A stretch of 64,000 nt of DNA from Micromonospora inaquosa (GTDB lineage Bacteria; Actinomycetota; Actinomycetes; Mycobacteriales; Micromonosporaceae), in contig NZ_QGSZ01000198.1 of NCBI RefSeq assembly GCF_003857055.1, positions 1 through 64,000 of the forward strand. The letters are read 5' to 3'. Below the pieces are notes generated by a model. The model ran no database searches. It was not told the origin of the DNA and saw only the letters and a list, made by a program, of their open reading frames with translations. The position numbers and the translations under genes are program-made. Positions 50,085 through 64,000 of the stretch are shown one piece after another; position 1 is the first letter of the stretch; every line of letters begins with the position of its first letter.

Positions 50085-50318
50085 GGGTTCTGGATCGTGG
50101 ACAACGGCTCGTCGCATCGCGGTCAAGTACGACCTCACGTACCCCGACAGGGTTGGGTCCCTGGCGGCACGCCCGGATCACAGCGAGGCCTTCTACAGCT
50201 ACTACAACCACGAACACCGCCATTCCGGGATCGGGCCACACACCGGCGTCGGCGCATCACGGCGCCGCGCAGATCGTCCGCACCCAGCGGGAACGCCCCC
50301 TCGATCTCGGTCCGTCAT
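50085..50318 (+). mobile_element. Two transposase remnants (IS630-like, then IS3-like)
   Basis: WIVDNGSSHRG near 50092-50125 is the DDE core motif of IS630-type transposases. A few dozen bases later EAFYSYYNHEHRHSGIGPHT (50187-50246), then in another frame HHGAAQIVRTQRERPLD, is the C-terminal end of an IS3-type OrfB. Both are short fragments with frameshifts. They lie at the left border of the beta-lactam-like cluster. Confidence 0.55.
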
Positions 50319-50321
50319 CGG

Positions 50322-51764
50322 TCAGTGCTGGCGCACGTTCGACGTCCGCCCCTTGCGCAGGGCGGGCTTATCCACCTTCCCGACGGCGGTATGGGGGATG
50401 GTGGCGGCGAGCACGATCTCCGCACGCACACCCAGGTCATCGAGCACGGCACGGATCGCCGCGCGCACGCGCTCGTCCTCGACCCCGGCCGCGGGCGTCG
50501 CCACCACGAGCGCCTCGCCCTCGGCCTCCCCGGGTAGCGGTGCCAGTACGGCGGCTTCGGTGATCGGGCACGCGGCCGTCAGCGCGGCCTCGACGCCCGG
50601 GCTGAACACCGGACCGGCCGAGCCGCCGAGCAGGTCGGCGACACGGCCGAGGACTCGGTACTCGCCGTCGAACTCGGCGACATCTCCTGTGTGGTACCAG
50701 CCGTCGCGGAACGTGGCGGAGGTCGCCCCCAGGTCACCGAAGTAGCCGACGCTCGTGTGCGTCGAGCGGGCCAGCACCTCACCGATCGAAGGCCAAGCCG
50801 CGTCGAGGGGAGCGAGCCTGATCTCCACTCCGGTGACCGGGGTCATGCCGCGGGTGTCCTGCACGGCATCGTCCATGTTGCCCAGCACGATGCCGAACTC
50901 GGTCGAGCCGTAGATGCGTCGTATGTGGATGCCGAGCACCTCGGCCGCGTCGGCGACGACCTGGCCGCTCAGGTACGCACCGCCGCAGAGCGGCATCCGC
51001 AACGCGGAAAGGTCGACGGACCGACTGCGTGCCGCCTGCGTCAGCAACTCGTAGTGCCTCGGCAGTGCGCTGCACACGGTGGCGCCGGTCTCTTCCAGCC
51101 ACCGCAGCAACTGGTCGGGCGCGGCAGACGGATCGGCCAGCACCAGGAGGGCGCCCGAGAGCAGCGCCGGGAACAGGTGGACGTCGCAGCCGTGTGCGAC
51201 GTCCAGGGTGTGGCGGTTGAACAGCACGTCCGCGGCGGTCGTCGCGGTGTAGGCGATCCACTGTCGCCGGTCGTGAAGCAGGTCATCCTGGCGCCAGGTC
51301 ACGAGCCGGGGCTTCCCCGTGGAGCCGGACGTCTCCAGCAGCCGGAACGCGCCCCCGTACGCCGCGAACGGCCGCACGCCGATCAGCTCGGAGCCGCCCG
51401 CCAGCTCTGCGGTCGTCACCTGCTCGACGACGACGTCCGGCAGCGGCTCCGCGCCGACGACGAGTGCCGGTTTCGTTTGCTCAACCAGCCAGGCGATGTG
51501 CTCCGGCGTCGCCGACCGGCTGATCGGCACGTGGATAGCGCCGCTGCCCGCCAGGGCGAACACCAATGCCACGTAGTCGATCCCGTTGTCCAGCCAGGTC
51601 GCCACCACCTGGCCCTCGCCGATGCCCCGGGCCCGCAGCCAGCCGAGGGCACGGTCGACCCGCAGCGACAGCTCGCCGTAGCTCACGCGATCGCCGTCGG
51701 GGACCACCACCGCGAGGGCATCGGCTCTGCGGGCCACCACGGAACGGAACTCGGTCAGTAGCAT
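50322..51764 (-). CDS. AMP-dependent acyl-CoA ligase/synthetase
   Basis: The 480-residue adenylate-forming enzyme has the P-loop ETSGSTGKPRLV, the A5-like RIYGSTEFGI, DGWYHTGDVAEF and the C-terminal A10 Lys in TAVGKVDKPALRKG. It activates a carboxylic acid as acyl-AMP, probably to acyl-CoA. It is the last gene after carB-carA-carC. As CarB consumes malonyl-CoA, this ligase could make the CoA ester for the core or activate a side chain (inference). GAGGAG precedes the ATG; the gap to carC is 9 bases. Confidence 0.87.
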   Translation of the reverse strand: MLLTEFRSVVARRADALAVVVPDGDRVSYGELSLRVDRALGWLRARGIGEGQVVATWLDNGIDYVALVFALAGSGAIHVPISRSATPEHIAWLVEQTKPALVVGAEPLPDVVVEQVTTAELAGGSELIGVRPFAAYGGAFRLLETSGSTGKPRLVTWRQDDLLHDRRQWIAYTATTAADVLFNRHTLDVAHGCDVHLFPALLSGALLVLADPSAAPDQLLRWLEETGATVCSALPRHYELLTQAARSRSVDLSALRMPLCGGAYLSGQVVADAAEVLGIHIRRIYGSTEFGIVLGNMDDAVQDTRGMTPVTGVEIRLAPLDAAWPSIGEVLARSTHTSVGYFGDLGATSATFRDGWYHTGDVAEFDGEYRVLGRVADLLGGSAGPVFSPGVEAALTAACPITEAAVLAPLPGEAEGEALVVATPAAGVEDERVRAAIRAVLDDLGVRAEIVLAATIPHTAVGKVDKPALRKGRTSNVRQH

Positions 51765-51773
51765 CGTTTCTCC

Positions 51774-52601
51774 TCAGGCGGTCGTCGGCAGAGTGACCTG
51801 GCCGCGATAGAGCAGCCGCACCCCGTCGGACCCGATCGCGGTGCGGCCGTGCAGCGTCCGCTGGTTGTCGATCACCAGCAGGTCACCGGTCTGCCAACGA
51901 TGCTGATAGAGGTAGCGCGGCGAATGCAGGTGCGCCGACAGCTCCGCGAAGAATGCGGCGGAGTCGTCGGCACTCACGCCGGCGACGCGCACCTGCCAGC
52001 CCTGCGGCACATCCGGCGGGAAGCCGAGTGCCAGGTTCAGCGAGCGCACCCGGCCGTAGTCGCGGGTGGTCGGGATCTCGTACCAGTCGGCGGGTACCTG
52101 CGGGAAGTAGCCGCGTTCCTCGACGAGGTATTCGAGTCGGCCGTCGGCAACAACCTTGCCGAGGTGCGCAGGGATCTCACGCCACGCGGCGAGCTGGTCG
52201 CACACCGTGGTCTCGCCGGAACCAGGCTCGTCGGCGAAGTCCTTGGCGTACAGGACGATCAGGTCGACCTGCTCGCCCACCAACAGTCCGTCGGTGTGTA
52301 GCGGGAGGGGGCCGCGGCCGGTGACGACCTTTCCCACGTCCCTTGAGGCGTTGAGCAGCAACAGATCGGCCTGGCCCTCGCCGAACTTGTGATCCACGGT
52401 TTGGCCGAGGAGGTGGACGAGCCGCTGGAAGGCATTCTCGGTGAAGTCCAGGCCGCGGGTCAGCGCGACCCCGCTGGTCAACGCCGCCTCCTGGGACCGC
52501 CGGGCCAGCTCTTCGACGGTCTCCCCGGGCGGCGACGTCAACACCGTGCCGAAACCCGAGTCGGTCAGTGTGTTCTCGGCCATCATCATCTCCTCGTTCA
52601 T
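51774..52601 (-). CDS. carC: CarC-like 2-oxoglutarate/Fe(II) oxygenase (carbapenem synthase)
   Basis: The 275-residue protein matches carbapenem synthase CarC in length and motifs: KVVTGRGPLPLHTDG with iron ligands His102 and Asp104, ETTVCDQLAAWREIPAHL, VEERGYFPQV, HSPRYLYQHRWQTGDLLVID, distal His251 in QRTLHGRT, and RLLYRGQ with the 2OG-binding Arg. CarC epimerises and desaturates carbapenams. The ATG at 52601 overlaps the carA stop; an ATG at 52583 with GAGGAG 6 bases upstream is an equally good start. It sits directly behind carA and carB. Confidence 0.88.
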   Translation of the reverse strand: MNEEMMMAENTLTDSGFGTVLTSPPGETVEELARRSQEAALTSGVALTRGLDFTENAFQRLVHLLGQTVDHKFGEGQADLLLLNASRDVGKVVTGRGPLPLHTDGLLVGEQVDLIVLYAKDFADEPGSGETTVCDQLAAWREIPAHLGKVVADGRLEYLVEERGYFPQVPADWYEIPTTRDYGRVRSLNLALGFPPDVPQGWQVRVAGVSADDSAAFFAELSAHLHSPRYLYQHRWQTGDLLVIDNQRTLHGRTAIGSDGVRLLYRGQVTLPTTA

Positions 52602-54016
52602 CGGATCGCGGCGAGCGCGCGTGCGTAGACCTCGTCGGCGCTCCAGTCGTCGAGGTGTCCTTGACCGGCCAGCGCCAGAAGGTCGGCGAAGCATGCTTGG
52701 TAGATGCGGGAGGGGTCGCTCTGCCCGGAGTCCGCAGTGAGCCGCCGCCGCACCCCGTCCTGCAGGTTCCCGCCGTGGTGTACGGCGATCTTGCGGCGCC
52801 ACGCGATGGCGGGGGTGACGTGGACGGCCATCGCGGTCCGCAGATGGAACTTCTCCCGGCCGTCGCGGACCTTGCACGCGGGAGTGGTCTCCAGCGCGGT
52901 GCGCATCACCGGGAGCGTCCAGAACGGGTGGAACGTCTCGACGCCGTACGCCAGCGCCATCCGGTTGGCCAGCTCACCGCTGGTGCGGGTTCGCGCGACC
53001 GCCTCGATGCCCTGGTCGATCAGCTCGTCCGGGTGTTCGAACGGGGTGAAGAGCCCGGCATTGATGAGGTCGCTGCCGTACCCGGTGAGCAGCACGCGAC
53101 CCGGTTCGACGACGCCGGACTGGTAGAACGCCGTGGCCGTGAGCGCGACCTCGACCACCTCCGGCGTGGTCACGCCGAGCCAGCGGACGGCGGCGGGGAT
53201 GGCACGGATGATGCTGTCCTCGTCGAGCAGCAGCGGATGCAGCTTGAGGCCGGCGACCTCGCACAGCTCCGCGGCGTCGGAGAACTCGTCTCCCCAGGGC
53301 GTGCCGACACTGTACGGCCGCACGTCGAGGTTCCGCGCCGCGGCCAGGTAGGTCACGGTGCCCGAGTCGATCCCGCCAGAGAGCAGAGACGCGTACGTGG
53401 CCTCGGGGCGGACGGCGGCGATGCCGGCGATCACCGCATCCAGCTCGGCCAGTTGCGCCTGCCCGGCAGCGAGCGGATCGTCCCGAAACGGCGTGCGGAA
53501 CCGCTCGAGGAAGTCCTCGGCTTGGGGGGTGGTGCTGGTCAGCCAGCCCGAAGCGGTCCGGGCACGGCGCTGCCGGACCGAGTGGTCCAACCGTCGGATC
53601 CCGTCGACCAGCGTGGCTTCCGGATCGGTGCCCACGGGACCCGAGTGCACCCGGGCGGCGAGGCCCCACGCGGGCAAAATAGCCGCGGCGAGCAGCAGGT
53701 CGGTGAAGAAGGCGAAGCCGCCGGTCGCGGGGTCCTCGGCGACGTAGATGGCGTCCTCGTTGAACACCGAGGTGAACGCGGTCACGGCGTCCTCGGCCAC
53801 CTGCAGCACGGTCCGCTGCGCCGGTTTCGTGGGCAGCTCGCCGAGCGCGGGCGCCGCCGTCAGCGTACGGACGTCGACATCGAACGGCGCGGTCGCGGGT
53901 AGCCCCGCCGCGAGGCCACGGTGGTAGACGAACAGATCACCGACCTCGACGCACGCACCCATCGACTCAAGTCCGGTTATGCGCCGGTTGGCGACGACCA
54001 CCCAGCCGCCGCTCAT
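52598..54016 (-). CDS. carA: CarA-like beta-lactam synthetase (carbapenam synthetase)
   Basis: The 472-residue protein belongs to the asparagine-synthetase-B-like beta-lactam synthetases: degenerate Ntn N-terminus without the catalytic Cys2, PPi loop LLSGGIDSGT (213-218), VLLTGYGSDLINAGLF (CarA has LTGYGSDLLFGGI), AYGVETFHPFW and WRRKIAVHHGG, where the Tyr/Lys pair that drives lactam closure is expected (Tyr357, Lys409; inferred). It should adenylate a carboxymethylproline-type beta-amino acid and close the four-membered lactam. ATGA overlaps join it to carB and carC. Confidence 0.9.
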   Translation of the reverse strand: MSGGWVVVANRRITGLESMGACVEVGDLFVYHRGLAAGLPATAPFDVDVRTLTAAPALGELPTKPAQRTVLQVAEDAVTAFTSVFNEDAIYVAEDPATGGFAFFTDLLLAAAILPAWGLAARVHSGPVGTDPEATLVDGIRRLDHSVRQRRARTASGWLTSTTPQAEDFLERFRTPFRDDPLAAGQAQLAELDAVIAGIAAVRPEATYASLLSGGIDSGTVTYLAAARNLDVRPYSVGTPWGDEFSDAAELCEVAGLKLHPLLLDEDSIIRAIPAAVRWLGVTTPEVVEVALTATAFYQSGVVEPGRVLLTGYGSDLINAGLFTPFEHPDELIDQGIEAVARTRTSGELANRMALAYGVETFHPFWTLPVMRTALETTPACKVRDGREKFHLRTAMAVHVTPAIAWRRKIAVHHGGNLQDGVRRRLTADSGQSDPSRIYQACFADLLALAGQGHLDDWSADEVYARALAAIR

Positions 54017-54795
54017 GCCTTGCCCACGATCCGGCGCATCTCCCGCTGCGGCCGCCCCGAGGCGAATCCTGCCCGGTGTGATCTCTTCGCGTTGTCCCGC
54101 AGGACGTGCAACCCCTGGATGTAGTCGCGGTTCATCTGCGGCTTCGTGTTGCGCACGGCCGCCGGGTTGTAGTCGGCGAAGGCCGCCGCGCGGGCCAGCG
54201 CGGTCGGCAGCACCTCGGCCGCGGGCACCGCCTGGTGCAGCAGGCCGTCCCGCAGGGAGGACTCGGCGGGCCACTCGTCACACGACAGGAGCATGTGCTG
54301 CATCACCGAACGCCCGGCCGAGCGTTCCAGCATGAACGCGCCGAAATTGCATGCGATACCGACCTTGAACTCGGGCATGCGCAGGATCGACGAGTCCGCA
54401 CCGACGCGGTAGTCGCACGTCAGCAAGAGTTGCAGGCCGATCCCGATGGCGTAACCCTCGACGGCGGCCACTGTGGGTTTGGTGACTTCGAGGCTGGCGA
54501 CGTAGAGCTCGGTGATGTTGTCGATCCACTCGTCCACCTCGTCACCGCCCGAGAAGTGGCTGACCTCGTGAAAATCGCCGCCCACGGCGAAGGAGTTGCC
54601 CTCGCCGCCGTGCAGCACCACGGCGGCGACCGCGTCGTCGGCCTCGAGCTCGCGGAGGATCCCGGTGAGTGCGCGCATCCGGCCGTTGCTCATCGCGTTC
54701 GAGTGATGCGAGCCCTCGAACGTAACCTGCGCGACGCCGTCCTTCGTCATCACGGTGAAGGTGTCACGGGGCTGTATGTCGACAGCGTTGTTCAT
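54013..54795 (-). CDS. carB: CarB-like carboxymethylproline synthase (crotonase family)
   Basis: The 260-residue crotonase reads very close to CarB/ThnE: VVLHGGEGNSFAVGGDFHEV, VDEWIDNITELYVASLEVTK, AVEGYAIGIGLQLLLTCDYR (oxyanion holes) and MPEFKVGIACNFGA with Glu142 at the position of CarB Glu131. CarB joins malonyl-CoA to pyrroline-5-carboxylate to give (2S,5S)-carboxymethylproline. GGAGG lies 8 bases before the ATG. It is the first gene of the carBAC-ligase unit, with a promoter candidate upstream. Confidence 0.92.
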   Translation of the reverse strand: MNNAVDIQPRDTFTVMTKDGVAQVTFEGSHHSNAMSNGRMRALTGILRELEADDAVAAVVLHGGEGNSFAVGGDFHEVSHFSGGDEVDEWIDNITELYVASLEVTKPTVAAVEGYAIGIGLQLLLTCDYRVGADSSILRMPEFKVGIACNFGAFMLERSAGRSVMQHMLLSCDEWPAESSLRDGLLHQAVPAAEVLPTALARAAAFADYNPAAVRNTKPQMNRDYIQGLHVLRDNAKRSHRAGFASGRPQREMRRIVGKA

Positions 54796-54858
54796 CAAGC
54801 TGGTCCTCCATGACTTTTCGGGGTGCGAGATGGCGCAGACAATCGCGCCTCTCCCCGG

Positions 54859-54887
54859 GTTAAACACGTTGATTACTCGTTCATCAA
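54859..54887 (-). promoter_or_regulatory. Promoter candidate for the carB-carA-carC-ligase unit
   Basis: On the minus strand TTGATG (54887-54882), 17 bases and TTTAAC (54864-54859) stand about 64 bases before the carB start. An inverted repeat GTTGAT/ATCAAC (54868-54888) overlaps the -35 box and spacer and could be an operator. The 204-base gap is AT-richer than the genes around it. Confidence 0.45.
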
Positions 54888-54999
54888 CACGGTGATCACC
54901 CTTCCGCCAACGTTGCCGGAATGGGCCGCACAAACGGGGTTTTACCCCCGGCGACTTCCGTGCGCCCGCCACGCCGCCACCGTGGCGGCTCCTGCTTCG

Positions 55000-55902
55000 T
55001 CAGGAGGAGCTTGATGTCGGCACCGGGCGGGTCGGTCGACCCGCGCGAGCGGCGAGTCCGGCGGAGACCCGTCCGGTGGCGACCTCCTCGACCGGTCCGG
55101 TCAGCCGGACCGCGCCGCCGGCGTCGACGGACACGGTGACGGCGCCACCGCGCATCCGGACGTCGACCTCGTCGCCCACCAGACCGAGACGCCGCACCGC
55201 GGCTGCCGCCGCGCAGGCCCCGCTCCCCGACGCGAGCACTGGCCCGGCACCGCGTTCCCACACCACGACCTCGAGCGAACTCCGGTCACGCACCACCGCG
55301 AACTCCACGTTGACCCGGGTGCGGAACGCAGAGTGCCGGCCGATCAGCGGCCCCAGGTCCCGCGCGGCCGACTCGTCCTCGGCCGGTAGGACGACGACCG
55401 CGTGCGGGTTTCCGTTGTGGACGCAGGTCACCCCAAGGGTCCGCCCGGCGACGGGCAACGGGTGGTCGACGACCGGGCCGGAACCCCCGACCAGGCCGAC
55501 GGCGTCCGCGTCGAAGTCCGGACGACCCAGGTCGATCGACACCAGCCCTGCGGACCGGTCCAGTACCCGGACACCGGTGTGGCGGAACCCCGTGTCCAGC
55601 ACGAACTCCGTAGCGCCGCCTCGGGACAGGTGCAGGGCGAGAATGCGCAGCCCGTTCGCGCTCAGCTCGCAGGGGCTCCCGTCCGGGTTGAACAACCGGG
55701 TCGGCATGGGTTGGCCCGCGCCCGCCGGCGGTCCCCGGAAGACGATTCCGTCCGCGCCGATCCCGAAGTGCCGGTCGCACATCGCGATCGCTGTCGCCGG
55801 TGCGGCGGGCAGCCCGTCCTCCGGATCCACGACCAGGTAGTCGTTGCCCATCGCCTGGTACTTCGCGAAGCGCGGAAGGCCTGTCCCTCGCGGCGAGGTC
55901 AC
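55000..55902 (-). CDS. DapF-fold protein lacking both catalytic cysteines
   Basis: The 300-residue protein has the two-lobe diaminopimelate-epimerase fold: FAKYQAMGNDYLVVD, HFGIGADGIV, LFNPDGSPCELSANG, CVHNGNPHAVV, ERGAGPVLASGSGACAA. DapF uses Cys in MCGNG and ACGTG. Here both are Ser (Ser81 in ELSANG, Ser225 in ASGSGA), so normal two-base racemisation is doubtful. Other reactions of the fold are isomerisation or ring steps. Its ATG overlaps the upstream diiron-protein stop. The last residues are basic and variable. Confidence 0.85.
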   Translation of the reverse strand: MTSPRGTGLPRFAKYQAMGNDYLVVDPEDGLPAAPATAIAMCDRHFGIGADGIVFRGPPAGAGQPMPTRLFNPDGSPCELSANGLRILALHLSRGGATEFVLDTGFRHTGVRVLDRSAGLVSIDLGRPDFDADAVGLVGGSGPVVDHPLPVAGRTLGVTCVHNGNPHAVVVLPAEDESAARDLGPLIGRHSAFRTRVNVEFAVVRDRSSLEVVVWERGAGPVLASGSGACAAAAAVRRLGLVGDEVDVRMRGGAVTVSVDAGGAVRLTGPVEEVATGRVSAGLAARAGRPTRPVPTSSSS

Positions 55903-56933
55903 CTGCGGCTGCCGTCAGCCCACCGCGGGGCGGTCTCGGCGAGCCGCTCGTCAAGGTAGCGAGCGGACGAGTTGAGCCGCCACACGGTCCCGCGTGCGAT
56001 GCCAATACGCATGGCCTCGGAGGTCGCCGCCGGTTTCACCACGTTGTGGAACCACCCGGCTGCGTGCTGGGAGTCGACAGTGATGTGCAGCCTGTGGTAC
56101 GTGATCCCGACCTCCGGCAGCCCCAGTCGCTCCCATGCGCGTACGACGCACACGAACCGGTCCGGCACCAGCCACTCGGTCATCCCGAGGTAGCCGACCG
56201 CCTCGGCGTACCGGCACCGGTAGCGCGACAGCATCACCGCGAGGTTCCCGGACAGCAGCGCCGTGCCCGTGAGCCGGTCGGCGACCTCGTCGTCCCGCAC
56301 GTCGAAGACCTCGAAGATCCGTTTGAAGAGCGTGGTGTGCACCTCGTCCGGCCGGCCGTTGCCCATTTCGTCCCAGTAGTTCGCCGCGATCTCCATCTTC
56401 GCGGGACCGTCGGTACCGACCTGCATGAGGGCGAGCAGGTCGTCGAACCTCGCGTCGATGACCGACTCCTGGATCATGTACAGACGCAGGTCCTCGGAGT
56501 CGGCGTGGTTGCTGATGAAATCGGTGTAGTAGGGATGCTTGTACACCCGGTGCTGCTTGGCCAGCGACTTCAACCAGGAGACGTAAGCGGCTGGTTCGGT
56601 CGGCATGCCGTCCAGCAGGCCGGCTTCGATGCGGGCGTCCTCTGCGGCGCCCGTGGCGGACTCCACCAGGCGGGCGATCTCGTGAATCACGACCGATCCC
56701 TCGGCGCTCGGTTCACCCGGAGCGATCCGCAACCCCAGATCATAGATTCGGGCGAGGAGCTGTTGCTGCTGCAAAAATGCATCCGGGTCACCCGCGGTAG
56801 CGCGGTCGTTCAGATCTCCCACCCGTTCGAGAACCTGCTCCCGCAGCGCACCGCGCACCGCGCGGTCAAGCTGATCCGCTGATATCGACAGCCAGTCCGA
56901 GATGTCGTCGACGACAGAAGCTGTTCGTTGCAC
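55899..56933 (-). CDS. Haem-oxygenase-like diiron oxidase candidate
   Basis: The 344-residue all-helical protein has candidate iron ligands in IQESVIDARFDD (Glu156), NYWDEMGNGRPDEVHT (Asp188/Glu189, His199), GMTEW (Glu253) and RLHITVDSQHAAGW (His283, Asp287, His290). This pattern fits the iron-containing redox enzymes of haem-oxygenase fold (HDO), which include N-oxygenases and C-C cleaving enzymes such as SznF, BesC and UndA. The gene overlaps the DapF-like gene by 4 bases and starts 36 bases after the molybdo-enzyme. Its substrate is unknown. Confidence 0.75.
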   Translation of the reverse strand: MQRTASVVDDISDWLSISADQLDRAVRGALREQVLERVGDLNDRATAGDPDAFLQQQQLLARIYDLGLRIAPGEPSAEGSVVIHEIARLVESATGAAEDARIEAGLLDGMPTEPAAYVSWLKSLAKQHRVYKHPYYTDFISNHADSEDLRLYMIQESVIDARFDDLLALMQVGTDGPAKMEIAANYWDEMGNGRPDEVHTTLFKRIFEVFDVRDDEVADRLTGTALLSGNLAVMLSRYRCRYAEAVGYLGMTEWLVPDRFVCVVRAWERLGLPEVGITYHRLHITVDSQHAAGWFHNVVKPAATSEAMRIGIARGTVWRLNSSARYLDERLAETAPRWADGSRR

Positions 56934-56969
56934 GGTCGTACCCCCATGGAAATAATGTGTCGTCTGATA

Positions 56970-59066
56970 TCAGTCTCGCGCCGCGGAGGGCTGCCATTCC
57001 TCGACCTCGACGCGGTTGTCGTGGAACACCGCACCGCCGCCCATGTCGGCGTCCCGCTCGTTCACCGTCGCGTTGACGGTCGAGCCGCCTGTGAGCTTCA
57101 TCCAATGGCCCTTTGTGGTCGCTACGACTCCGCTGCGGATGTGTGCGGAGGCGTACACGGTGGAGACGAATGAACCGCGGTCGTTGAAGACCACGACCGG
57201 TGTGCCGTCGGTGAGCCCACGAGCCGCCATGTCGCCCGGGTGCAGCTCGACCCGTGGCGGACCAGCCCGGCGCCGCAGTTCCGGCTTGTTGGCGAAGACC
57301 GAGTTGAGGAAGAAGTGCGAGGCACCGGCGATCAGTGAGAGCGGGTACCGCGCGGCCAGTTCCGGGTCGGTCGACTCGCGTGGCGGGGTGTATCCCGCCA
57401 CTGCCTCGAACCCAGCCTCCACGGCTCGCTCGGACCGGAATTCCAGTTTGCCGGACGGTGTCGGGAAGCCGTCGGCGAACGGCACGAAATCGGCCGGATA
57501 ACTCAGTCTCGCCCACCCGTCTCGGCGTAGGGACTCGACATCGATACCGTCCAGCGATGGATGGTCCGAGGCCAGCAACTGGGCCGCCAACTCCTGGTCC
57601 GAATCGTAGAGACTCGGCTCGGACAACCCCATGTGCCTGGCGATTCGGCGGAACATCTCCGTCGTGGACAGGCAGTCGCCCGGAGGGACCGTCGCCGGCT
57701 CGTTCCACGCGATGTACATGTGGCCGTAGCCGTCGAGGACATCCAGGTGCTCGGTCTGCATGGTCGCGGGCAGCACGATGTCGGCGTAGTCGGCGGTGTC
57801 GGTCTGGAAGTGGTCGACGACTACCGTGAACAGGTCTTCGCGGGCGAGGGCCTGGCGAACGCTTTGCTGATCCGGGTTGCTGACCACCGGGTTGGCCCCG
57901 TACACGAACAGCGCCTTGACCGGCGGGGTCAGGTCGAGGAGGTTCTGGCCGAGCCTGGTCATGGAGAGCCGCCGCACCGGCGCCGCACGCAGGTCGCTGC
58001 GGAGGAGCGCCTCCCGGTTCCCGCCGAAGTACCCGTCGGTCGAGTAGGTGAGGCCACCACCCAGCCTGCCCCAGTCACCGGTGACGCCGGGCAGGCAGGC
58101 GAGCACGCGGACGGCCGCGCCGCCGCCCGCGTGGCGCTGCATCCCGCTGCCGGCGCGGATGCCGGTGGGTCTGGTGGTGGCGATCCGTTCCCCCAGCCGC
58201 TCGATCTGCGCGCGGGAAACGCCGGTCAACTCCGCGGCCCGTTCCGGAGGGAACTGCTCGATGCGGGCGTGGAACTCGGGCCACCCCAGTGTGTGGTCGG
58301 CCAGGTAGTCACGGTCCGCCCCGCCGGCGGCGACCACCACGTTGAGCAGGCCCAGCGCGAGGGCGGCGTCGGTACCGGGCCGCGGTGCCAGGTGCTCGTC
58401 GGCCTGCTGGGCGGTCCTTGTGGCCACTGGGTCGATCGCGACGACGTACGCGCCCTGCTCGCGTGCCTTGTTGATGAACCGCCACTGGTGATGGCTTGTG
58501 GTGAGGGTGTTGACGCCCCACAGCAAGATCAACCGCGAGTGGGCCAGCGACTCCGGATCGATGCCCCGGTGGGTGCCGGTGGCGAGGTCCGCGCCGACCA
58601 GCCCCGCCGCCGAACAGATCGTCATGTCGTGCTCGGAGGCGCCGAGCACGTTCCACAACCGTGCGCCGGCCTGGCCCTGGAGCCCTTGGAGGTACCCCAG
58701 GTTGCCCGTTCCCTGGTACGGCCAGATGGACTCGCCGCCGTACTCGTGACGAACCCGGTCGAACCGTTCGGCGATCTCGTCGAACGCCACGTCCAGGCTG
58801 ATCCTCGTGAACCTGCCGGTGCCCTTCGGGCCGGTGCGACGCAGTGCATGACGGAGACGATCGGGCGACGCCGCGTGGTCGAGGTACTGGTTGACCTTCA
58901 CGCAGAGAGTGCCGTGGGTGAAGGGGTGCTCGGGGCGACCACGCAACGTGACGGCGACACCGTCGCGGACGCCAACTATCCAGCTGCAGGCATCCGGGCA
59001 GTCCAACGGGCATCCACCCGAAACCTCACGGTCGACCACAGTGACACGTCCACCCGTCGCCCTCAT
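56970..59066 (-). CDS. Molybdopterin oxidoreductase (DMSO-reductase family)
   Basis: The 698-residue enzyme begins with a [4Fe-4S] motif GGCPLDCPDACSW (Cys19, 23, 27; Cys55 in GTLCVKVN). Then come bis-MGD-binding segments (WPYQGTGNLGYLQGLQG; LILLWGVNTLTTSHHQWRFI; ALFVYGANPVVSNPDQQSVR; DYADIVLPATMQTEHLDV) and a C-terminal cap (FLNSVFANKPELRRRAGPPR). A Cys in TICSAAG is the probable Mo ligand region. No Tat signal, so it is cytoplasmic. The ATG overlaps the stop of the 2OG oxygenase. Such an enzyme in a natural-product operon is rare. Confidence 0.88.
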   Translation of the reverse strand: MRATGGRVTVVDREVSGGCPLDCPDACSWIVGVRDGVAVTLRGRPEHPFTHGTLCVKVNQYLDHAASPDRLRHALRRTGPKGTGRFTRISLDVAFDEIAERFDRVRHEYGGESIWPYQGTGNLGYLQGLQGQAGARLWNVLGASEHDMTICSAAGLVGADLATGTHRGIDPESLAHSRLILLWGVNTLTTSHHQWRFINKAREQGAYVVAIDPVATRTAQQADEHLAPRPGTDAALALGLLNVVVAAGGADRDYLADHTLGWPEFHARIEQFPPERAAELTGVSRAQIERLGERIATTRPTGIRAGSGMQRHAGGGAAVRVLACLPGVTGDWGRLGGGLTYSTDGYFGGNREALLRSDLRAAPVRRLSMTRLGQNLLDLTPPVKALFVYGANPVVSNPDQQSVRQALAREDLFTVVVDHFQTDTADYADIVLPATMQTEHLDVLDGYGHMYIAWNEPATVPPGDCLSTTEMFRRIARHMGLSEPSLYDSDQELAAQLLASDHPSLDGIDVESLRRDGWARLSYPADFVPFADGFPTPSGKLEFRSERAVEAGFEAVAGYTPPRESTDPELAARYPLSLIAGASHFFLNSVFANKPELRRRAGPPRVELHPGDMAARGLTDGTPVVVFNDRGSFVSTVYASAHIRSGVVATTKGHWMKLTGGSTVNATVNERDADMGGGAVFHDNRVEVEEWQPSAARD

Positions 59067-59764
59067 GGCGCCAAGGGTTCGCTGTCGAGCACCGCCTGGT
59101 CGTGCTCCTCACCGTACCAACGCTCTGACCAGCGCGAGAACGCGGCGATGACGATGTCGCGGTGCCCCTCCTGGCCGGAGATACCCGGGTGCAGATCTGT
59201 GACGTCGTGTGCGACGGCGCGGTCATCGAGCAGCGCAGCATGGCCAGGCTGGACGGTGCCACGCCAGAACGGCTCGGAGGAGTCGAGGGACTTCCACAGC
59301 CGCATCTCGCCCCCGGTCACATTGTGCCTATTGAAGACCAGGATCGCGACGTACTCGTGCCCGTCCTTATGGACGCCCTCCGGGGTGACCAGCCCGGGTT
59401 TCGCCTCCGTGGCGCGGCTGCGGTTCTGATGAACGTTCACCTGCCAGCTCTCGGAACGGTCCAGCGGCAGGCTGGCGGCGACCGCGTGCAGGTAGGGGAG
59501 GAAGTCGGCCTGCAATGGCTCGTACTCGCGCATGATGCCGCCCGCGACGGTGTTGTACTTGCGGGACTGGCCGTAGGGGCGGTGCGCGAGCAGCTCGAAC
59601 GTCCAGGCGTCGGAGGTGTGGTCGAGCTTGTACTGCGAGAAGCGCTTGTAACGCGTCTGGTTTCCCATGTAGACATCGAGCGGGACATTGTCGTAGCTGT
59701 CCAGCACCTCCTGCGAGATCGGAGGCAGATCAATGATGTCATAGCCGTCGGCGAGTGTTGACAT
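59063..59764 (-). CDS. 2OG/Fe(II) dioxygenase (2OG-Fe_Oxy_2, amino-acid hydroxylase type)
   Basis: The 233-residue protein has the PF10014-like core GVHKDGHEYVAILVFNRHNV with iron ligands His132 and Asp134, DDRAVAHDVTDL with His186, and HRDIVIAAFSRW with the 2OG Arg. The family includes free amino-acid hydroxylases such as isoleucine 4-hydroxylase. It is a second oxygenase besides CarC and could hydroxylate arginine, ornithine or a proline-type precursor (inference). It is the first gene behind the operator-containing region at 59908-59956. Confidence 0.83.
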   Translation of the reverse strand: MSTLADGYDIIDLPPISQEVLDSYDNVPLDVYMGNQTRYKRFSQYKLDHTSDAWTFELLAHRPYGQSRKYNTVAGGIMREYEPLQADFLPYLHAVAASLPLDRSESWQVNVHQNRSRATEAKPGLVTPEGVHKDGHEYVAILVFNRHNVTGGEMRLWKSLDSSEPFWRGTVQPGHAALLDDRAVAHDVTDLHPGISGQEGHRDIVIAAFSRWSERWYGEEHDQAVLDSEPLAP

Positions 59765-59907
59765 GCAAGTCTTCCGTTCTGTTCAGCAGTCTTGTTCGGG
59801 AGAAGTGCCGATTGGCCGAATCTGGGTGGCGACGAGATGACTCAGGGACCGTCGTTGGCAACCCGATTCGTCGCCGACTCGTTCCTCACCCCATAAAGAT
59901 CCAAGCA

Positions 59908-59956
59908 TTTACATTGGACTATGTAAACGGTAGCCAGTGGACCTCGTTGACGTCAA
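59908..59956 (-). promoter_or_regulatory. Promoter with 20-bp palindromic operator
   Basis: On the minus strand TTGACG (59956-59951), 18 bases, TACCGT (59932-59927; fits the actinobacterial TAnnnT). From the -10 onward lies the perfect palindrome TTTACAT-TGGACT-ATGTAAA (59908-59927), a repressor-type operator over the expected transcription start. The leader to 59764 is about 155 bases. The region 59765-60057 is clearly AT-richer than the genes and has no ORF of its own. Confidence 0.5.
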
Positions 59957-60057
59957 GACCGTCCGTACGAAACTTTACTTAGCGAAAAATGTTGAACGGC
60001 AAATGGGCGCACGGAAGCACGCGGTGCCGCTAGCATCGAGGACCGCCGCCGACCTGG

Positions 60058-61095
60058 TCAGAAATACCTGGCCAACTCTCCCCGCCGCCGGATGTCGAGA
60101 GAACAGCAATGCAGTCCGCCCCCGAGAGAACGGCCGTGCCGGAACCGCACGGGTACCGGCTCCACCCCGGCCTGCTCCAGCTGACGCATTAGGGAAACCT
60201 GGGTGGACGGGACGAGCACACGATCCGGGCCGAGCGCGAGGAGGTTCATCCCGACCCAGCGAGAAGCTCGTGGCCAGTCGAAAGCGAAACCGTCATCCTC
60301 GATATCGGTGACCCACAGCGTCTTCCAGCTCCGCAGCGGGCTCGGTATCATTTCGGGCGTCATTTGAGAGGCGTTGGCCAACAGCAAGCCCGGCCGAAGA
60401 ATGTGCAGTGTCGTGTCCACGTGATCCGCGCAGATGGACATCTCGTGCACCGTGAAATCCGGCCCCAAAGTTCGCTGGAGCCAAGTCGCACCTCGCCGGT
60501 TACCGGTGCTGCTGACGTTGAAAAAAATGTCGTACCCGCATCTCAAGAGGTTCGCGGCATCGAACAAGGGTTCATCGTCGGCAACTACGGAGGCATTCGA
60601 CTCGTAGATGTACGTGGAGTCAGGCAGCTTCGGCTTCGGCGCCGACAGCCATCGGGCTCCGGAATCGAAGTACTCGCGCAGCAGGTCGCGAAACGGGAAG
60701 ACCTCGAAGTACCGGGACCGCATCGGCATCGGGACCTCGATCAGCATGTCACCGATGACCGACAGGCAGTCTCGCGGCATGAGCGCATGCATCGCGACGG
60801 ACGCCCAGTTCGGTGACGAATACTGCTGTCCCGCCACCGGGCGTTCGGGGCGTCGAACGGCGACACCGTGCGACTCGAGTACCGCGGTGAGCTCGTGAAA
60901 GTCCTCTTCCGCTTCGTCGACGACTCGATCCAGCATCGCGCTGGGGATCTTCTCACGCTCCGCCTCGTCGGGTCGTTCGAAGAAGTGGCGGAGGGAGGGG
61001 TCCACGGGCGGGGGAGTGAAGCCGACGGCCGTACCCAGCACGACCTCCTCCAGCGGGTCCCAGTCGTTACTGCTCCACACAGCGTTCACGGACAT
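60058..61095 (-). CDS. Arginine:amine amidinotransferase (AGAT/StrB1-like), copy 1
   Basis: The 345-residue enzyme has FDAANLLRCGYDIFFNVSST, the catalytic His in ADHVDTTLHILRPG, and the Cys in GGGLHCCSLDIRRRGE (HC, near residue 330), matching human AGAT (FHCWTCDVRRRG). It moves the amidino group from arginine to an amine, giving ornithine and a guanidino product. I set the start at the ATG 61095 with GAGGGG 7 bases upstream; a TTG at 61101 lacks support. Copy 2 at 62579-63613 is a clear paralogue. Confidence 0.9.
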   Translation of the reverse strand: MSVNAVWSSNDWDPLEEVVLGTAVGFTPPPVDPSLRHFFERPDEAEREKIPSAMLDRVVDEAEEDFHELTAVLESHGVAVRRPERPVAGQQYSSPNWASVAMHALMPRDCLSVIGDMLIEVPMPMRSRYFEVFPFRDLLREYFDSGARWLSAPKPKLPDSTYIYESNASVVADDEPLFDAANLLRCGYDIFFNVSSTGNRRGATWLQRTLGPDFTVHEMSICADHVDTTLHILRPGLLLANASQMTPEMIPSPLRSWKTLWVTDIEDDGFAFDWPRASRWVGMNLLALGPDRVLVPSTQVSLMRQLEQAGVEPVPVRFRHGRSLGGGLHCCSLDIRRRGELARYF

Positions 61096-61156
61096 CGGCA
61101 ATCCCCTCGATCAGGTGGCAGGTAGCCGGGCTGTCACCGGCGTCAGAAGACCGCCT

Positions 61157-61915
61157 TCAGCTCACGCGGACGCGGTCGCCGAACCGCACCGAGCCCTCAC
61201 GGATGACTTTCGCGTACACCCCGAAGTTGGTGTTTCTCCTTTCCGCCAGCACCCGGAGGACCTCTTTGTCGCGGGGCACGCCCGGCTGCGGCAGCGTGAC
61301 CGTCACGCACCGCTCGGTCTGCTCGGTGATCTCGAGTCTCGTGGTCTCCCCGATGGACACCTCGCGGCCGATCCAGTCGTCCTCGAATCCCGGCCCCCAC
61401 TCCCCGGCGATGACGATATTGGGCCGGAAGCGGGCCACCGGGACCACGCTTCCTCCCGGCACCTCGGCCGCCAGCGCGGTGAGGGCCGACCGTGAGATCA
61501 GGTGGACCGCGCCGATGTCGAAGTGAGGTGTGCCCGACTCCCGGGAAGCCCGCACCGGCTCACCGGCCAACGCCGTGAGCGCCGCGTCCAGGTCGGGGTC
61601 GCCGGCAGTCAGCACGGCGCCGGTCGGCGCGTGAACCTCGACGCGACCGTGGCGTGTGCGCGCCGCGTAGGCGAGCAGGCCGTCGAGGCGACGGACGTGC
61701 TTCCAGGTCTTGCAGCTGCCCACCCGCCCATCCGGGAAGGTGGCGGCCCACTCGCGGTCGCCGGCCATTCCGCGGCTGCCCAGCCGTACGTCATCGACCG
61801 TCTCGCCCCGCATGGACTTGAACGGATACCGGTAGAGCGCTTCGACTGTCGCCTCGACAGCGAACACGAGAGACTCCTTCGCGCGAGGCCCGGACGGTTG
61901 GCCGGGCCGGGTCAT
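61157..61915 (-). CDS. MOSC-domain protein, mARC/YcbX-like
   Basis: The 252-residue protein has the MOSC_N barrel (EALYRYPFKSMRGETVDDVR; GMAGDREWAA) and MOSC domain (ARFRPNIVIAG; TERCVTVTLPQPG with Cys203, the Mo ligand of mARC; FGVYAKVIREGSVRFGDRV). mARC and YcbX reduce N-hydroxylated amidines, guanidines and purines with a Mo cofactor. Next to amidinotransferases, such activity could act on an N-hydroxyguanidine or amidoxime (inference). The ATG overlaps the exporter stop by 4 bases. Confidence 0.85.
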   Translation of the reverse strand: MTRPGQPSGPRAKESLVFAVEATVEALYRYPFKSMRGETVDDVRLGSRGMAGDREWAATFPDGRVGSCKTWKHVRRLDGLLAYAARTRHGRVEVHAPTGAVLTAGDPDLDAALTALAGEPVRASRESGTPHFDIGAVHLISRSALTALAAEVPGGSVVPVARFRPNIVIAGEWGPGFEDDWIGREVSIGETTRLEITEQTERCVTVTLPQPGVPRDKEVLRVLAERRNTNFGVYAKVIREGSVRFGDRVRVS

Positions 61916-62532
61916 CGGTCGAACAGCACCAGGCTGGCCAGGGCGATGAGGACGGCGCTCGACAGGTAGTTGAGCGCACGCCCCACCCGGGGACGTGTGG
62001 CGATCTTGGAGGCCAGGGTGCCTCCGGTCACCCCGACGGTGACGTCGATGGGCAGGGCGGTCAGCGGAACGATCAGGCAGAACCCGATCAGGACCAGCAG
62101 GCCCGGATCGTCGAGACTGACGATGATTTGCGGGACCAGGGCGAGGAAGAAGGTGACCGTCTTCGGATTCGTGCCCTCCACCAGGAAGCCCTGAAGGTAG
62201 CTTCGCAAGCCGGACACCCTGGCCGGTCTCTCGGTTCGTACCGTGAATGGCTGGTCACGGAGCCCCGAAATGCCCAGATAGAGCAGGTACGCCGCACCGG
62301 CGAACCGCAGCACCGTGAAGGCCAGCTCGGACGAGGCGATCAGGGCGGACGCGCCGATCGCCGTCAGGAGCGCCCACATCGCACTCCCGCTAGCCAGCCC
62401 GAAGGCCGCGAACACTCCGGCGATCCGCCCGTTGACGACGCTGCGCGACATCACGTAGAGGATCGACGGCCCAGGGCTCAGGTTCAGCAGGAACGCACTG
62501 AGAGCGAACGAGGCAAGGATGGTGAGCGTCAA
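61912..62532 (-). CDS. LysE/RhtB-family exporter
   Basis: The 206-residue protein has six membrane helices and LNLSPGPSILYVMSRSVVNG, the LysE-family motif, plus VEGTNPKTVTFFLALVPQII. Members export amino acids and small amines. In this operon it may export the final product or a toxic intermediate and so give self-protection (inference). The start is TTG at 62532; AAAGG lies upstream. It overlaps the MOSC gene and follows amidinotransferase 2 by 46 bases. Confidence 0.87.
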   Translation of the reverse strand: MTLTILASFALSAFLLNLSPGPSILYVMSRSVVNGRIAGVFAAFGLASGSAMWALLTAIGASALIASSELAFTVLRFAGAAYLLYLGISGLRDQPFTVRTERPARVSGLRSYLQGFLVEGTNPKTVTFFLALVPQIIVSLDDPGLLVLIGFCLIVPLTALPIDVTVGVTGGTLASKIATRPRVGRALNYLSSAVLIALASLVLFDR

Positions 62533-62578
62533 CTCGCTGGCCTTTTCTGTTCAGGAAAGCGTCGCCGGCGCGACGGAG

Positions 62579-63613
62579 TCACAGGTACGTCTCGAGCTCG
62601 CCGCGCCGGCGGACGTCCAGGGAACAGCAGTGCAGTCCGCCGCCGAACGTGCGGCCGTGCCGGAAGCTGGTGGGGACCGCGGTGATGCCGGCGTTCTCCA
62701 GCTGCTTGATCACCCGGGTCTGGTTGGCCGGCACCACGACCGTGTCGGGGCCGAGGGCAAGAATGTTCATACCGACCCAGACGGACGCGCGCGGCCAGTC
62801 GAAGGCATAGCCGTCGTTCTCTGGTGTGTCCACCCAGATGGTCTTCCAGGACCGCAGCGGGGCGGGAATCTGATCCGCGGTGAGGCGTTCCGAGTTGGCC
62901 AGCAGCAGCCCCGGCCGCAGGATGTGCAACGTCGTTCCGACGTGATCACTGCAGATGGAGATCTCGTGCACCCGGAAGTCCGAGCCCAGCTGCCGGCGCA
63001 GCCAGGCCGCCCCCCGCCGGTTGCCGGTGTTGCTCACGTTGAAGAAGATGTCGGTCCCGCACCGGAGCATGTTGGCCGCGTCGAACAACGGCTCATGCTC
63101 CGCCACGACCGAGGCACCAGGTTCGTACACGTAGGTCTCGTCGGGCAGCAGGGGCTTCGGCGCCGAGAACCAGGAGGCGCCCGCGTCGAAGTACTCCCGG
63201 AGCAGGCGCCGGAACGGGGCGGTCTCGAAGTAGCGGGCACGCATCGGCATCGGTGCCTCGATGATGCGGTCGCCGATCACCAGCAGGCAGTCCCGCGGCA
63301 TCAGCGCGTGCATGGCGACGGATTCCCACTCCGGAGTGGCGTAACGCCGGCCCACGGCGGTCGCGTCCGGACGGCGCACCCGTACACCGGCACTCGTCAA
63401 CGTCTCGGTCAGCAGGGCGAAGTCCTCCTCGGTCTCGTCCACCACGCGTTGCAGCGTGCCGGCGTCGATCCGCTCGTCCTTGGCGTCCGCCGGGGGCTCG
63501 AAGAAGTGCCTCAGTGAAACGTCCACCGGAGGCGGGGTGAGTCCGGCCGCGGAGCCCAGAATGACCTCCTCCAGCGGATCCCAGTCGTTGACACTCCAGA
63601 CGGTGCGCGTCAT
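62579..63613 (-). CDS. Arginine:amine amidinotransferase (AGAT/StrB1-like), copy 2
   Basis: The 344-residue enzyme matches copy 1 along its whole length (WDPLEEVILGSAAGLTPPPV; FDAANMLRCGTDIFFNVSNT; His224/229 region SDHVGTTLHILRPG; catalytic Cys329 in GGGLHCCSLDVRRRGE). All catalytic residues are kept in both copies, so both should be active, perhaps on different amines. The ATG at 63613 overlaps the SDR stop by one base (TGATG). Confidence 0.9.
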   Translation of the reverse strand: MTRTVWSVNDWDPLEEVILGSAAGLTPPPVDVSLRHFFEPPADAKDERIDAGTLQRVVDETEEDFALLTETLTSAGVRVRRPDATAVGRRYATPEWESVAMHALMPRDCLLVIGDRIIEAPMPMRARYFETAPFRRLLREYFDAGASWFSAPKPLLPDETYVYEPGASVVAEHEPLFDAANMLRCGTDIFFNVSNTGNRRGAAWLRRQLGSDFRVHEISICSDHVGTTLHILRPGLLLANSERLTADQIPAPLRSWKTIWVDTPENDGYAFDWPRASVWVGMNILALGPDTVVVPANQTRVIKQLENAGITAVPTSFRHGRTFGGGLHCCSLDVRRRGELETYL

Positions 63614-64000
63614 CACTGCTCCTTGGATTGACTCGGGCGGAAGCTGAGGCCGAAAGGCTGGTCCGTGGGCATGAGCTCGATGAGGCTCACGTTGACTCGC
63701 TGAGGCTGGGAGATGCACCACTCCACCGCCTCGGCGATGTCCTGCGGGGTGAGCGGGTCGCTACCGTCGTACAAGGCGTCTGCCCGCTCCTGATCCCCGT
63801 CGAACCGGGTCAGAGCGAATTCCGTACGGGCCATGCCGGGGGCGATGCAGCTGACGCGGATGCCGCTGCCCTCCAGATCGGTGCGCATGTTGAGACTGAG
63901 CTGGTGGACGAACGCCTTGGTGCCGCCGTAGACGTTCCCACCGAGGTAGGGGTACACCGCGGCGATGGAGCCGATGTTCACCACGTGGCCGCGGCCGGCG
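63613..64000 (-). CDS. YdfG-like short-chain dehydrogenase, 5' end beyond the window
   Basis: The visible 128 residues cover the C-terminal half of an SDR: HVVNIGSIAAVYPYLGGNVY, active-site YGGTKAF (YxxxK), IRVSCIAPGMARTEFALTRF and RVNVSLIELMPTDQPFG. The end is like YdfG (NADP-dependent serine/3-hydroxy acid dehydrogenase). The start codon is past base 64000, so the cluster continues to the right. It is coupled to amidinotransferase 2. Confidence 0.85.
   Translation of the reverse strand, partial: AGRGHVVNIGSIAAVYPYLGGNVYGGTKAFVHQLSLNMRTDLEGSGIRVSCIAPGMARTEFALTRFDGDQERADALYDGSDPLTPQDIAEAVEWCISQPQRVNVSLIELMPTDQPFGLSFRPSQSKEQ

Follow-up and report, generated by a model that had tools for sequence, protein, structure and literature searches.

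A candidate carbapenem-type CarB-CarA-CarC core beside cyclopropane and guanidine genes in Micromonospora inaquosa

What product might be made by a locus in which homologs of the carbapenem enzymes CarB, CarA, and CarC lie beside amidinotransferase genes? We addressed this question for a 64,000-nucleotide stretch of the Micromonospora inaquosa genome (bases 1-64000 of the 108205-bp contig NZ_QGSZ01000198.1; hereafter, the window), in which an original prediction had placed a carbapenam or carbapenem cluster with guanidine chemistry. Our analysis points to a carbapenem-type core, an adjoining gene set resembling that for the aminocyclopropylalanine unit of belactosin and hormaomycin, and separate guanidine genes. 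We put at about 45% the probability that one molecule results, in which a cyclopropyl amino acid, guanidinylated and perhaps also N-hydroxylated, is attached to a beta-lactam core. To our knowledge, few carbapenem pathways have been characterized, namely the CarABC route typified by Pectobacterium and that of thienamycin. No description of the present cluster was found among the matches listed in open-access titles and the beginnings of abstracts; the scope excluded subscription journals, and unpublished status is not thereby shown.

The CarB-CarA-CarC core

Every gene named in the original prediction is an intact open reading frame (ORF) on the minus strand. The CarB, CarA, and CarC homologs are coupled as proposed, the CarB/CarA and CarA/CarC ORFs overlapping by 4 bp, and both the Protein Data Bank (PDB) matches and the residues agree with the assignments. 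The best PDB matches (Table 1) are followed for the CarB homolog, after 5o34 ("carB homologue") and CarB 2a7k, by a crotonase (E 1e-22), for the CarA homolog by beta-lactam synthetase 1jgt (1e-17) and AsnB (1.5e-4), and for the CarC homolog, after CarC 1nx4 and 4oj8, by a chain at 3e-7. No NCBIfam model names any of the three as a carbapenem enzyme; the best NCBIfam matches are generic and below cut-off.

Residues were compared in the window and eight relatives; two further loci, G980 (broken CarA, partial CarB and CarC) and G1109, were excluded, and L012 is identical to L011. The CarA residues Tyr345, Glu380, and Lys443, which we take to be catalytic, are retained in the window and in 8/8 relatives. 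The AsnB control has Glu/Ala/Lys at these positions, which rules out reading the CarA homolog as an asparagine synthetase; the clavam synthetase also has Tyr-Glu-Lys. The CarB homolog retains G62, W79, Q111, E131, and H229, whose roles we presume from CarB, and has Ile in place of M108. In the accessible text of PMC6542682, a beta-branched residue at this position shifts the stereoselectivity of engineered CarB with methylmalonyl-CoA. The alignment check called for by the original prediction thus found nearly all catalytic residues retained, the changes seen being CarB M108I and CarC Y165F, and comparison of the sequences supports a carbapenem-type CarB/CarA/CarC core.

The CarC homolog retains H101, D103, H251, R263, and R267, which include the iron and 2-oxoglutarate (2OG) ligands H101, D103, H251, and R263. 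Position 165, however, is Phe rather than Tyr in the window and in 8/8 cluster relatives. In an alignment of 107 rows that includes the window and Pectobacterium, and from which 10/115 homologs outside 240-300 aa were excluded, this position is Phe in 97 rows, Tyr in 4, Thr in 4, Ile in 1, and Ala in 1. The portion of PMC6097109 available to us presents Tyr165 of Pectobacterium CarC as the presumed hydrogen donor for C5 inversion and reports that the Y165F variant catalyzes substrate oxidation. Since Tyr165 is missing, an active (5R)-carbapenem is uncertain as the product.

Cyclopropane, guanidine, and ligase genes

The original prediction gave the cluster as 50322..64000. This span proved too short on both sides: the gene block continues past the window edge to the ATP-grasp gene ending at contig position 71318, and the ArgJ gene on the plus strand belongs to the core, as a dedicated second copy (Table 1). 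From the GntA-type gene through the ligase, all genes lie on one strand, with further 4-bp couplings between the DapF-like and diiron genes, the molybdenum (Mo) and 2OG genes, and the LysE and MOSC genes. No terminator-like site was found on the minus strand in the 204-bp gap between the DapF-like gene and CarB; a sigma-70 promoter scan, uninformative for this organism, returned 0 sites. The order from ArgJ to the ATP-grasp gene, which is the last common gene, is kept in M. noduli GUI43 at 90-99% protein identity, and the block is therefore not a chance arrangement. Between ArgJ and the ligase, at ~50090-50250, an IS3-like transposase remnant (YYNHEHRHSGIG...) was recognized by eye in translation.

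Table 1 Features of the locus and of related loci. Positions are those of the window unless stated otherwise.
Feature	Position	Strand	Evidence
ArgJ-type ornithine acetyltransferase (OAT)	48701..49924	+	PF01960 E 3e-125; TIGR00120 above cut-off
CysF-like adenylate-forming (AMP-forming) ligase	50322..51764	-	best PDB match 8ra0
CarC homolog, Fe/2OG carbapenem synthase type, Phe at Tyr165	51774..52601	-	1nx4 E 1e-49
CarA homolog, carbapenam/beta-lactam synthetase type	52598..54016	-	1q15 E 2e-24
CarB homolog, carboxymethylproline synthase type, crotonase fold	54013..54795	-	5o34 E 1e-90; 2a7k E 8e-47
DapF-like protein, BelM/HrmT kind	55000..55902	-	TIGR00652 176.7 bits (cut-off 114.65)
Heme-oxygenase-like diiron N-oxygenase, BelK/HrmI type	55899..56933	-	PF14518; HrmI 9n1a E 1.8e-71
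Molybdopterin oxidoreductase, predicted BelN-like nitro reductase	56970..59066	-	PF00384/PF01568/PF04879
Fe/2OG oxygenase, PF10014, BelL/HrmJ nitrocyclopropanase type	59063..59764	-	9dq0 E 5.5e-84; 8jms E 8.9e-84
Amidinotransferase homolog AT2	60058..61095	-	70% identity to AT1; FDAAN, DHV, GGGxHC motifs
MOSC-domain protein (MOSC_N + MOSC)	61157..61915	-	PF03473, PF03476
LysE-family exporter	61912..62532	-	PF01810; TIGR00949 104 bits, below cut-off
Amidinotransferase homolog AT1	62579..63613	-	StrB1 1bwd E 2e-87; motifs retained
Short-chain dehydrogenase (SDR), 3' part within window	63613..64000	-	gene start at contig 64383
GNAT, weakly NAGS-like	contig 64401-64934, beyond window		
GntA-type N-hydroxylase homolog (heme, YqcI/YcgG protein)	contig 64880-65659, beyond window		NF041366 above cut-off
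SARP-like regulator	contig 65774-68665, beyond window	+	
Weak major facilitator superfamily (MFS) match	contig 68893-70074, beyond window		
ATP-grasp protein	contig 70071-71318, beyond window		
Formyltransferase-ArgG-ArgH-EamA sets at other CarC loci	L020 8143-18999; L022 8440-19566; L024 7457-18680; L100 7203-13005		

The two amidinotransferases, the second 2OG oxygenase, and the DapF-like, diiron, molybdo-, MOSC, and LysE proteins listed in the original prediction are all present on the same strand, and family searches agree with them. The guanidine role proposed for these genes is supported for the two amidinotransferase homologs; the HrmI and BelL-type matches led us to drop it for the second 2OG oxygenase, the diiron protein, and the Mo enzyme. 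The runner-up of the diiron protein in the PDB is SznF (E 7e-3), and the two chains matched by the PF10014 oxygenase are, we infer from the family and from a review's mention of a ScBelL structure, BelL/HrmJ-type cyclopropanases. According to the accessible part of PMC10764440, BelK and HrmI convert lysine to 6-nitronorleucine, from which BelL and HrmJ close nitrocyclopropylalanine; belM and hrmT may encode DapF-like epimerases, nitro reduction is the predicted role of the Mo reductase BelN, and belK-hrmI, belL-hrmJ, and belM-hrmT are paired genes. Proteins of the BelK, BelL, and BelM kinds and a predicted BelN-like Mo enzyme all occur within one block of the window. On these matches, the four genes resemble a set for aminocyclopropylalanine of the belactosin/hormaomycin type; cassettes of this kind are known, and the present one stands beside CarBAC.

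Homologs of the diiron protein occur in 27/392 Streptomyces genomes (29 loci). Within 1.5-kb flanks, a 2OG gene of at least 46% identity accompanies 16 of these loci, 14 of which have the DapF-like gene too. When 10 of the 29 loci were extended to ~20 kb, a Mo homolog of 66% identity was found in three (L072, L073, and L078), near BelK/BelL-type genes.

Despite its TIGR00652 score, the DapF-like protein has Ser in place of both motif Cys (SANG, ASGSGACA). DapF-like motifs were compared in the window and at L018, L055-L059, L070, L073, L076, L079, and L104-L107; the cassette proteins have Ser at both motif Cys (S[GA]NG, ASGS) wherever both motifs are readable. Other DapF homologs of the same genomes retain CGNG in 5/5 cases, the second motif being readable in two. 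The cassette proteins are unlikely, judging from these motifs, to be the ordinary diaminopimelate epimerases that TIGR00652 names. The HxD motif of the PF10014 enzyme is HKD in the window and HHD in 15/15 motif hits from the Streptomyces loci. Position 136 of BelL (His; Arg in HrmJ) sets stereochemistry (PMC10764440, accessible part); that it corresponds to the HKD/HHD difference is a guess. We also considered a D-cycloserine-like pathway and dropped it, because neither motif Cys is present in the DapF-like protein and none of the scanned genes was O-ureidoserine synthase-like. The D-cycloserine set comprises the heme protein DcsA, the DapF-like protein DcsC, and an ATP-grasp protein.

AT1 also matches arginine amidinotransferases other than StrB1, and both AT1 and AT2 have FDAAN, DHV, and GGGLHC, motifs whose Asp, His, and Cys presumably have the roles established for this family. 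The GntA-type protein scores 261 bits against NCBIfam NF041366 (cut-off 145). As predicted from these families, the guanidine chemistry of AT1, AT2, and the GntA-type protein is separate from the cyclopropane set. In the genus, an amidinotransferase (E <= 1e-30) was found in 26/160 genomes; among these, the AT1/AT2 pair is confined to M. noduli and the window genome, and the remaining amidinotransferases are 38-44% identical. More strains may carry an AT2-type gene, given a protein of Micromonospora sp. RB23 with 94% identity to AT2, and amidinotransferase homologs of 70-85% identity were found elsewhere. Assignment to a shared contig was based on contigs of equal size and covered 62 CarC, 18 amidinotransferase, and 18 ligase rows. 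By this measure, one of the 18 amidinotransferase rows shares a contig with a CarC homolog: P0223 (76% identity to the amidinotransferase) and P0077 (52% to CarC) are both assigned, with agreement in strain name as well, to a 96123-bp contig of Streptomyces sp. B-S-A8, an apparent second link of the two enzymes.

The gene described as a CoA ligase in the original prediction opens 9 nt past CarC, and its product is CysF-like: it matches 8ra0 with 408 bits, the next chain with 97.5, and MatB-type enzymes with 94, and a malonyl-CoA synthetase role was set aside accordingly. Entry 8RA0 corresponds to CysF, the synthetase for the beta-lactone of cystargolide (PMC11427300, accessible text). In a quick tree of 102 rows, 10 CarC-linked ligase rows fall in one 23-row group (SH-aLRT 83) that is sister to a 75-row side containing CysF as well as CysFE fusions (98); the window ligase is thus outside the CysF/CysFE clade. 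The 10 CarC-linked rows comprise six placed by equal-sized contigs, P0119 matched to the G096 contig, P0116 and P0117, which are near-identical to the window and M. noduli ligases, and the window itself; P0131, a further equal-sized-contig match, lies outside the length filter of the tree. Seven ligase homologs, from Streptomyces and Pseudonocardiales among others, were assigned by equal-sized contigs to the same contig as a CarC homolog, and the CarC-ligase pair therefore reaches beyond Micromonospora. For the ATP-grasp protein, all matches to dipeptide ligases stay below the curated cut-offs.

CarC loci in other genomes

The original prediction had suggested searching other genomes for the same neighborhood; the full block was found in M. 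noduli, and the core recurs in other genera. CarC was found in 5/300 genomes of the window's family and 5/160 of its genus (the same five), in 5/392 Streptomyces genomes, in 1/396 phylum-wide genomes (the window's own), and in 1/170 of the family of Saccharothrix luteola. Stretches were fetched for 11 distinct CarC loci (the window, G268 from M. noduli, G096, G284, G295, L011, G779, G798, G980, G1059, and G1109). CarA and CarB are near CarC in 10 of them (broken in G980) and ArgJ in nine; in G1109, neither CarA nor CarB was found within the 35 kb fetched. The CysF-like ligase (at least 49% identity) is near CarC in 5/11 loci, all from Micromonospora, and lies directly after CarC in 5/5 Micromonospora loci. 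The cyclopropane-guanidine block is present in 2/11. An additional ArgJ of 34-38% identity was found in 9/9 genomes searched, and the cluster-type ArgJ of G798 is far from CarC.

A formyltransferase-ArgG-ArgH-EamA exporter set is found at 4/11 loci. It lies between ArgJ and CarB, adjoining the latter, in G096, G284, and G295, and in G779 it is ~17 kb from CarC, adjoining a second CarB. The cluster-type ArgG is an extra copy in G096, G295, and G779. From the gene families, an amine could be formylated and then processed by ArgG/ArgH chemistry to a formamidine, comparable to the N-formimidoyl group of imipenem, or to a guanidine. In G798, ArgG and ArgH adjoin CarA, and both G798 and Saccharothrix have a C-A-T-TE nonribosomal peptide synthetase (NRPS) and a pyridoxal phosphate-dependent decarboxylase. 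Amidine-making genes thus occur near the CarBAC core by two unrelated routes, which would favor an amidine or guanidine in the products.

Three further observations concern single loci. The second CarB homolog of G779 (51%; L100 12238-13005, a Streptomyces-type genome) lies beside ArgG/ArgH and away from the CarA-CarB pair. Saccharothrix luteola NEAU-S10 has identical 20.8-kb copies of the CarBAC locus on two scaffolds (L011 and L012), perhaps an assembly duplication. In G980 (L037 8969-12612), a full-length ArgJ match accompanies a seemingly decayed CarBAC, in which the CarA match falls in two frames and those of CarB and CarC are incomplete.

One product or two, and relation to known systems

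The gene-level facts are firm, and the chemistry proposed here is predicted. The ArgJ copy would feed ornithine and pyrroline-5-carboxylate, to which CarB would add a malonyl-CoA-derived acetate unit before the beta-lactam ring is formed by CarA. CarC would oxidize the bicycle to a carbapenam- or carbapenem-type beta-lactam, with no Tyr165 route for inverting C5. In the other half, the diiron enzyme would convert lysine to 6-nitronorleucine, the PF10014 enzyme would close the cyclopropane, and the Mo enzyme would reduce nitro to amine, giving aminocyclopropyl-alanine. AT1 and AT2 may then transfer an amidino group from arginine to the amine or amines, producing a cyclopropane-locked arginine analog whose guanidine the GntA-type heme protein would N-hydroxylate. 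The parts would be joined through carboxylates activated by the CysF-like ligase and the ATP-grasp protein, in the manner of BelV and BelU with the beta-lactone of belactosin, and the LysE and MFS-like proteins would export the product. According to the accessible text of PMC11427300, BelV joins the beta-lactone acid to the side-chain amine of ornithine and the ATP-grasp enzyme BelU adds alanine. That both halves enter one molecule is what we infer, and it is our first choice. The guanidino- or amidino-carbapenam/carbapenem of the original prediction stands in its CarBAC core and amidinotransferases, and is open to doubt in its active (5R) form, given Phe165, and in the assumption of one molecule.

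In a bolder version, which we think unlikely, the product is a beta-lactam counterpart of belactosin: the CysF-like ligase would couple the carboxylate of the CarBAC warhead to (hydroxy)guanidino-cyclopropyl-alanine, the ATP-grasp protein would extend it, and the arginine-mimicking peptide would have as its target the proteasome or a serine/threonine hydrolase and not penicillin-binding proteins. A proteasome-type target is not far-fetched, as proteasome inhibition by synthetic beta-lactam dipeptides is on record (PMC12638514, accessible part). If true, this would be the first case in nature of carbapenem logic combined with that of belactosin.

Several points weigh against a single hybrid product. 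The two halves abut at a single clean junction (54795/55000); CarBAC and amidinotransferase matches were absent from 10/10 extended (~20 kb) Streptomyces cyclopropane regions, and 9/11 CarC loci are without the cyclopropane set in the stretches fetched, the two with it being close kin (CarC ~95% identical). The ligase appears nearest to CysF, a beta-lactone former, among the sequences compared, and the ATP-grasp, GNAT, and MFS assignments are weak matches or below curated cut-offs. The Mo-enzyme substrate and the amidinotransferase acceptor are guesses, as is any function for the DapF-like protein, since it lacks both motif Cys. CarC position 182 is Tyr in 89/107 rows (Leu in Pectobacterium), so an alternative donor is possible and Tyr182 could stand in for Tyr165. 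The phylogeny proposed in the original prediction gave a divided answer for CarA: the best PDB match is CarA, while in the rooted tree the nearest neighbor of the actinobacterial CarA group is clavam beta-lactam synthetase and not CarA of Pectobacterium (92/87), with all three reference rows flagged as long branches. The product, finally, is predicted from the genes.

Our second choice is that two independent pathways adjoin, one using CarBAC with ArgJ and the ligase for a beta-lactam and the other making a product of its own, an amino acid or dipeptide with an N-hydroxyguanidino-cyclopropyl unit; the two might be co-regulated. The cephamycin-clavulanate supercluster is such a case of co-regulated neighboring pathways. 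The clean junction fits this reading, as do the occurrence of each block without the other in stretches read elsewhere and the regulator, exporter, and ATP-grasp genes that the second block has of its own. Against it, the halves share a strand across the gap without a terminator-like site, the order is kept in M. noduli, an amidinotransferase and a CarC homolog are assigned to one Streptomyces contig, and no exporter or regulator was identified in the core block; we judge it somewhat unlikely. A free carbapenem with a guanidino side chain, targeting penicillin-binding proteins like thienamycin, would suit the CarBAC core and the two amidinotransferase homologs, but is distinctly improbable: without Tyr165 the (5R) geometry is not assured, CarBAC alone yields no amine to guanidinylate by established chemistry, the cyclopropane set accounts for four genes, and a CysF-like ligase gene directly follows CarC throughout the Micromonospora loci. 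Very improbable is a CarBAC product other than a carbapenem-type beta-lactam; the gene-based product assignment and the unsure position of CarA in its tree would allow it, against which stand Tyr-Glu-Lys in 9/9 cluster CarA proteins, unlike AsnB, the retained CarB residues, and the top rank of CarA in a single-sequence search. We know of no precedent for a double beta-lactam/beta-lactone warhead. A route to one, in which the carbapenam is hydroxylated by CarC (Phe165) and the CysF-like enzyme then closes a beta-lactone from this hydroxyl to the C3 carboxylate, is the least probable of all, for although Y165F CarC oxidizes its substrate (PMC6097109, accessible text) and the CarC-linked ligases form one clade sister to CysF, cystargolide and belactosin lactonization uses a methyltransferase and a hydrolase (PMC11427300, accessible text), neither of which was found among the 20 Pfam-scanned proteins.

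The CarC loci point to an actinobacterial CarBAC branch with a CarC that lacks the inversion tyrosine and with interchangeable modules of the amidine, cyclopropane, or NRPS kind. A real hybrid would bring a new warhead-peptide class and a new arginine analog. Should the hybrid not be real, the CarC mechanism can still be tested directly on the natural Phe165 enzymes, and the modular core can guide genome mining for beta-lactams.

Among known systems, the clavulanic acid cluster shares the ArgJ-type OAT and a beta-lactam synthetase-type enzyme; the window differs from it in having the crotonase CarB, and neither the thiamine pyrophosphate enzyme CEAS nor a proclavaminate amidinohydrolase was found among the 20 scanned proteins. 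With thienamycin (thn) and MM 4550 it shares enzymes of the CarB/ThnE and CarA/ThnM types. The thn cluster carries methylases and CoA-trimming enzymes, none of which was found among the 20 scanned genes, and it is without a close CarC homolog as far as the accessible text of PMC6097109 states. The CysF-like adenylating enzyme and the ATP-grasp protein resemble the cystargolide and belactosin ligases (CysF/BelH, CysC/BelV, and CysD/BelU), from which the window differs in a ligase sister to the CysF clade and in that the genes scanned include neither a methyltransferase nor a hydrolase partner. Pectobacterium carotovorum, which makes (5R)-carbapen-2-em-3-carboxylate with CarB-CarA-CarC, has the three homologous enzymes, here adjacent, overlapping, and with nearly all catalytic residues; the window differs by Phe at CarC Tyr165, the dedicated ArgJ, the CysF-like ligase, and the cyclopropane and guanidine genes. 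The belactosin and hormaomycin systems (BelK-L-M-N and HrmI-J-T) share with the window a single block in which a Mo enzyme, likened to BelN by description, accompanies the DapF-like protein, the PF10014 oxygenase, and the diiron N-oxygenase, whereas the window has CarBAC in place of the beta-lactone genes, together with amidinotransferases and a guanidine N-hydroxylase homolog.

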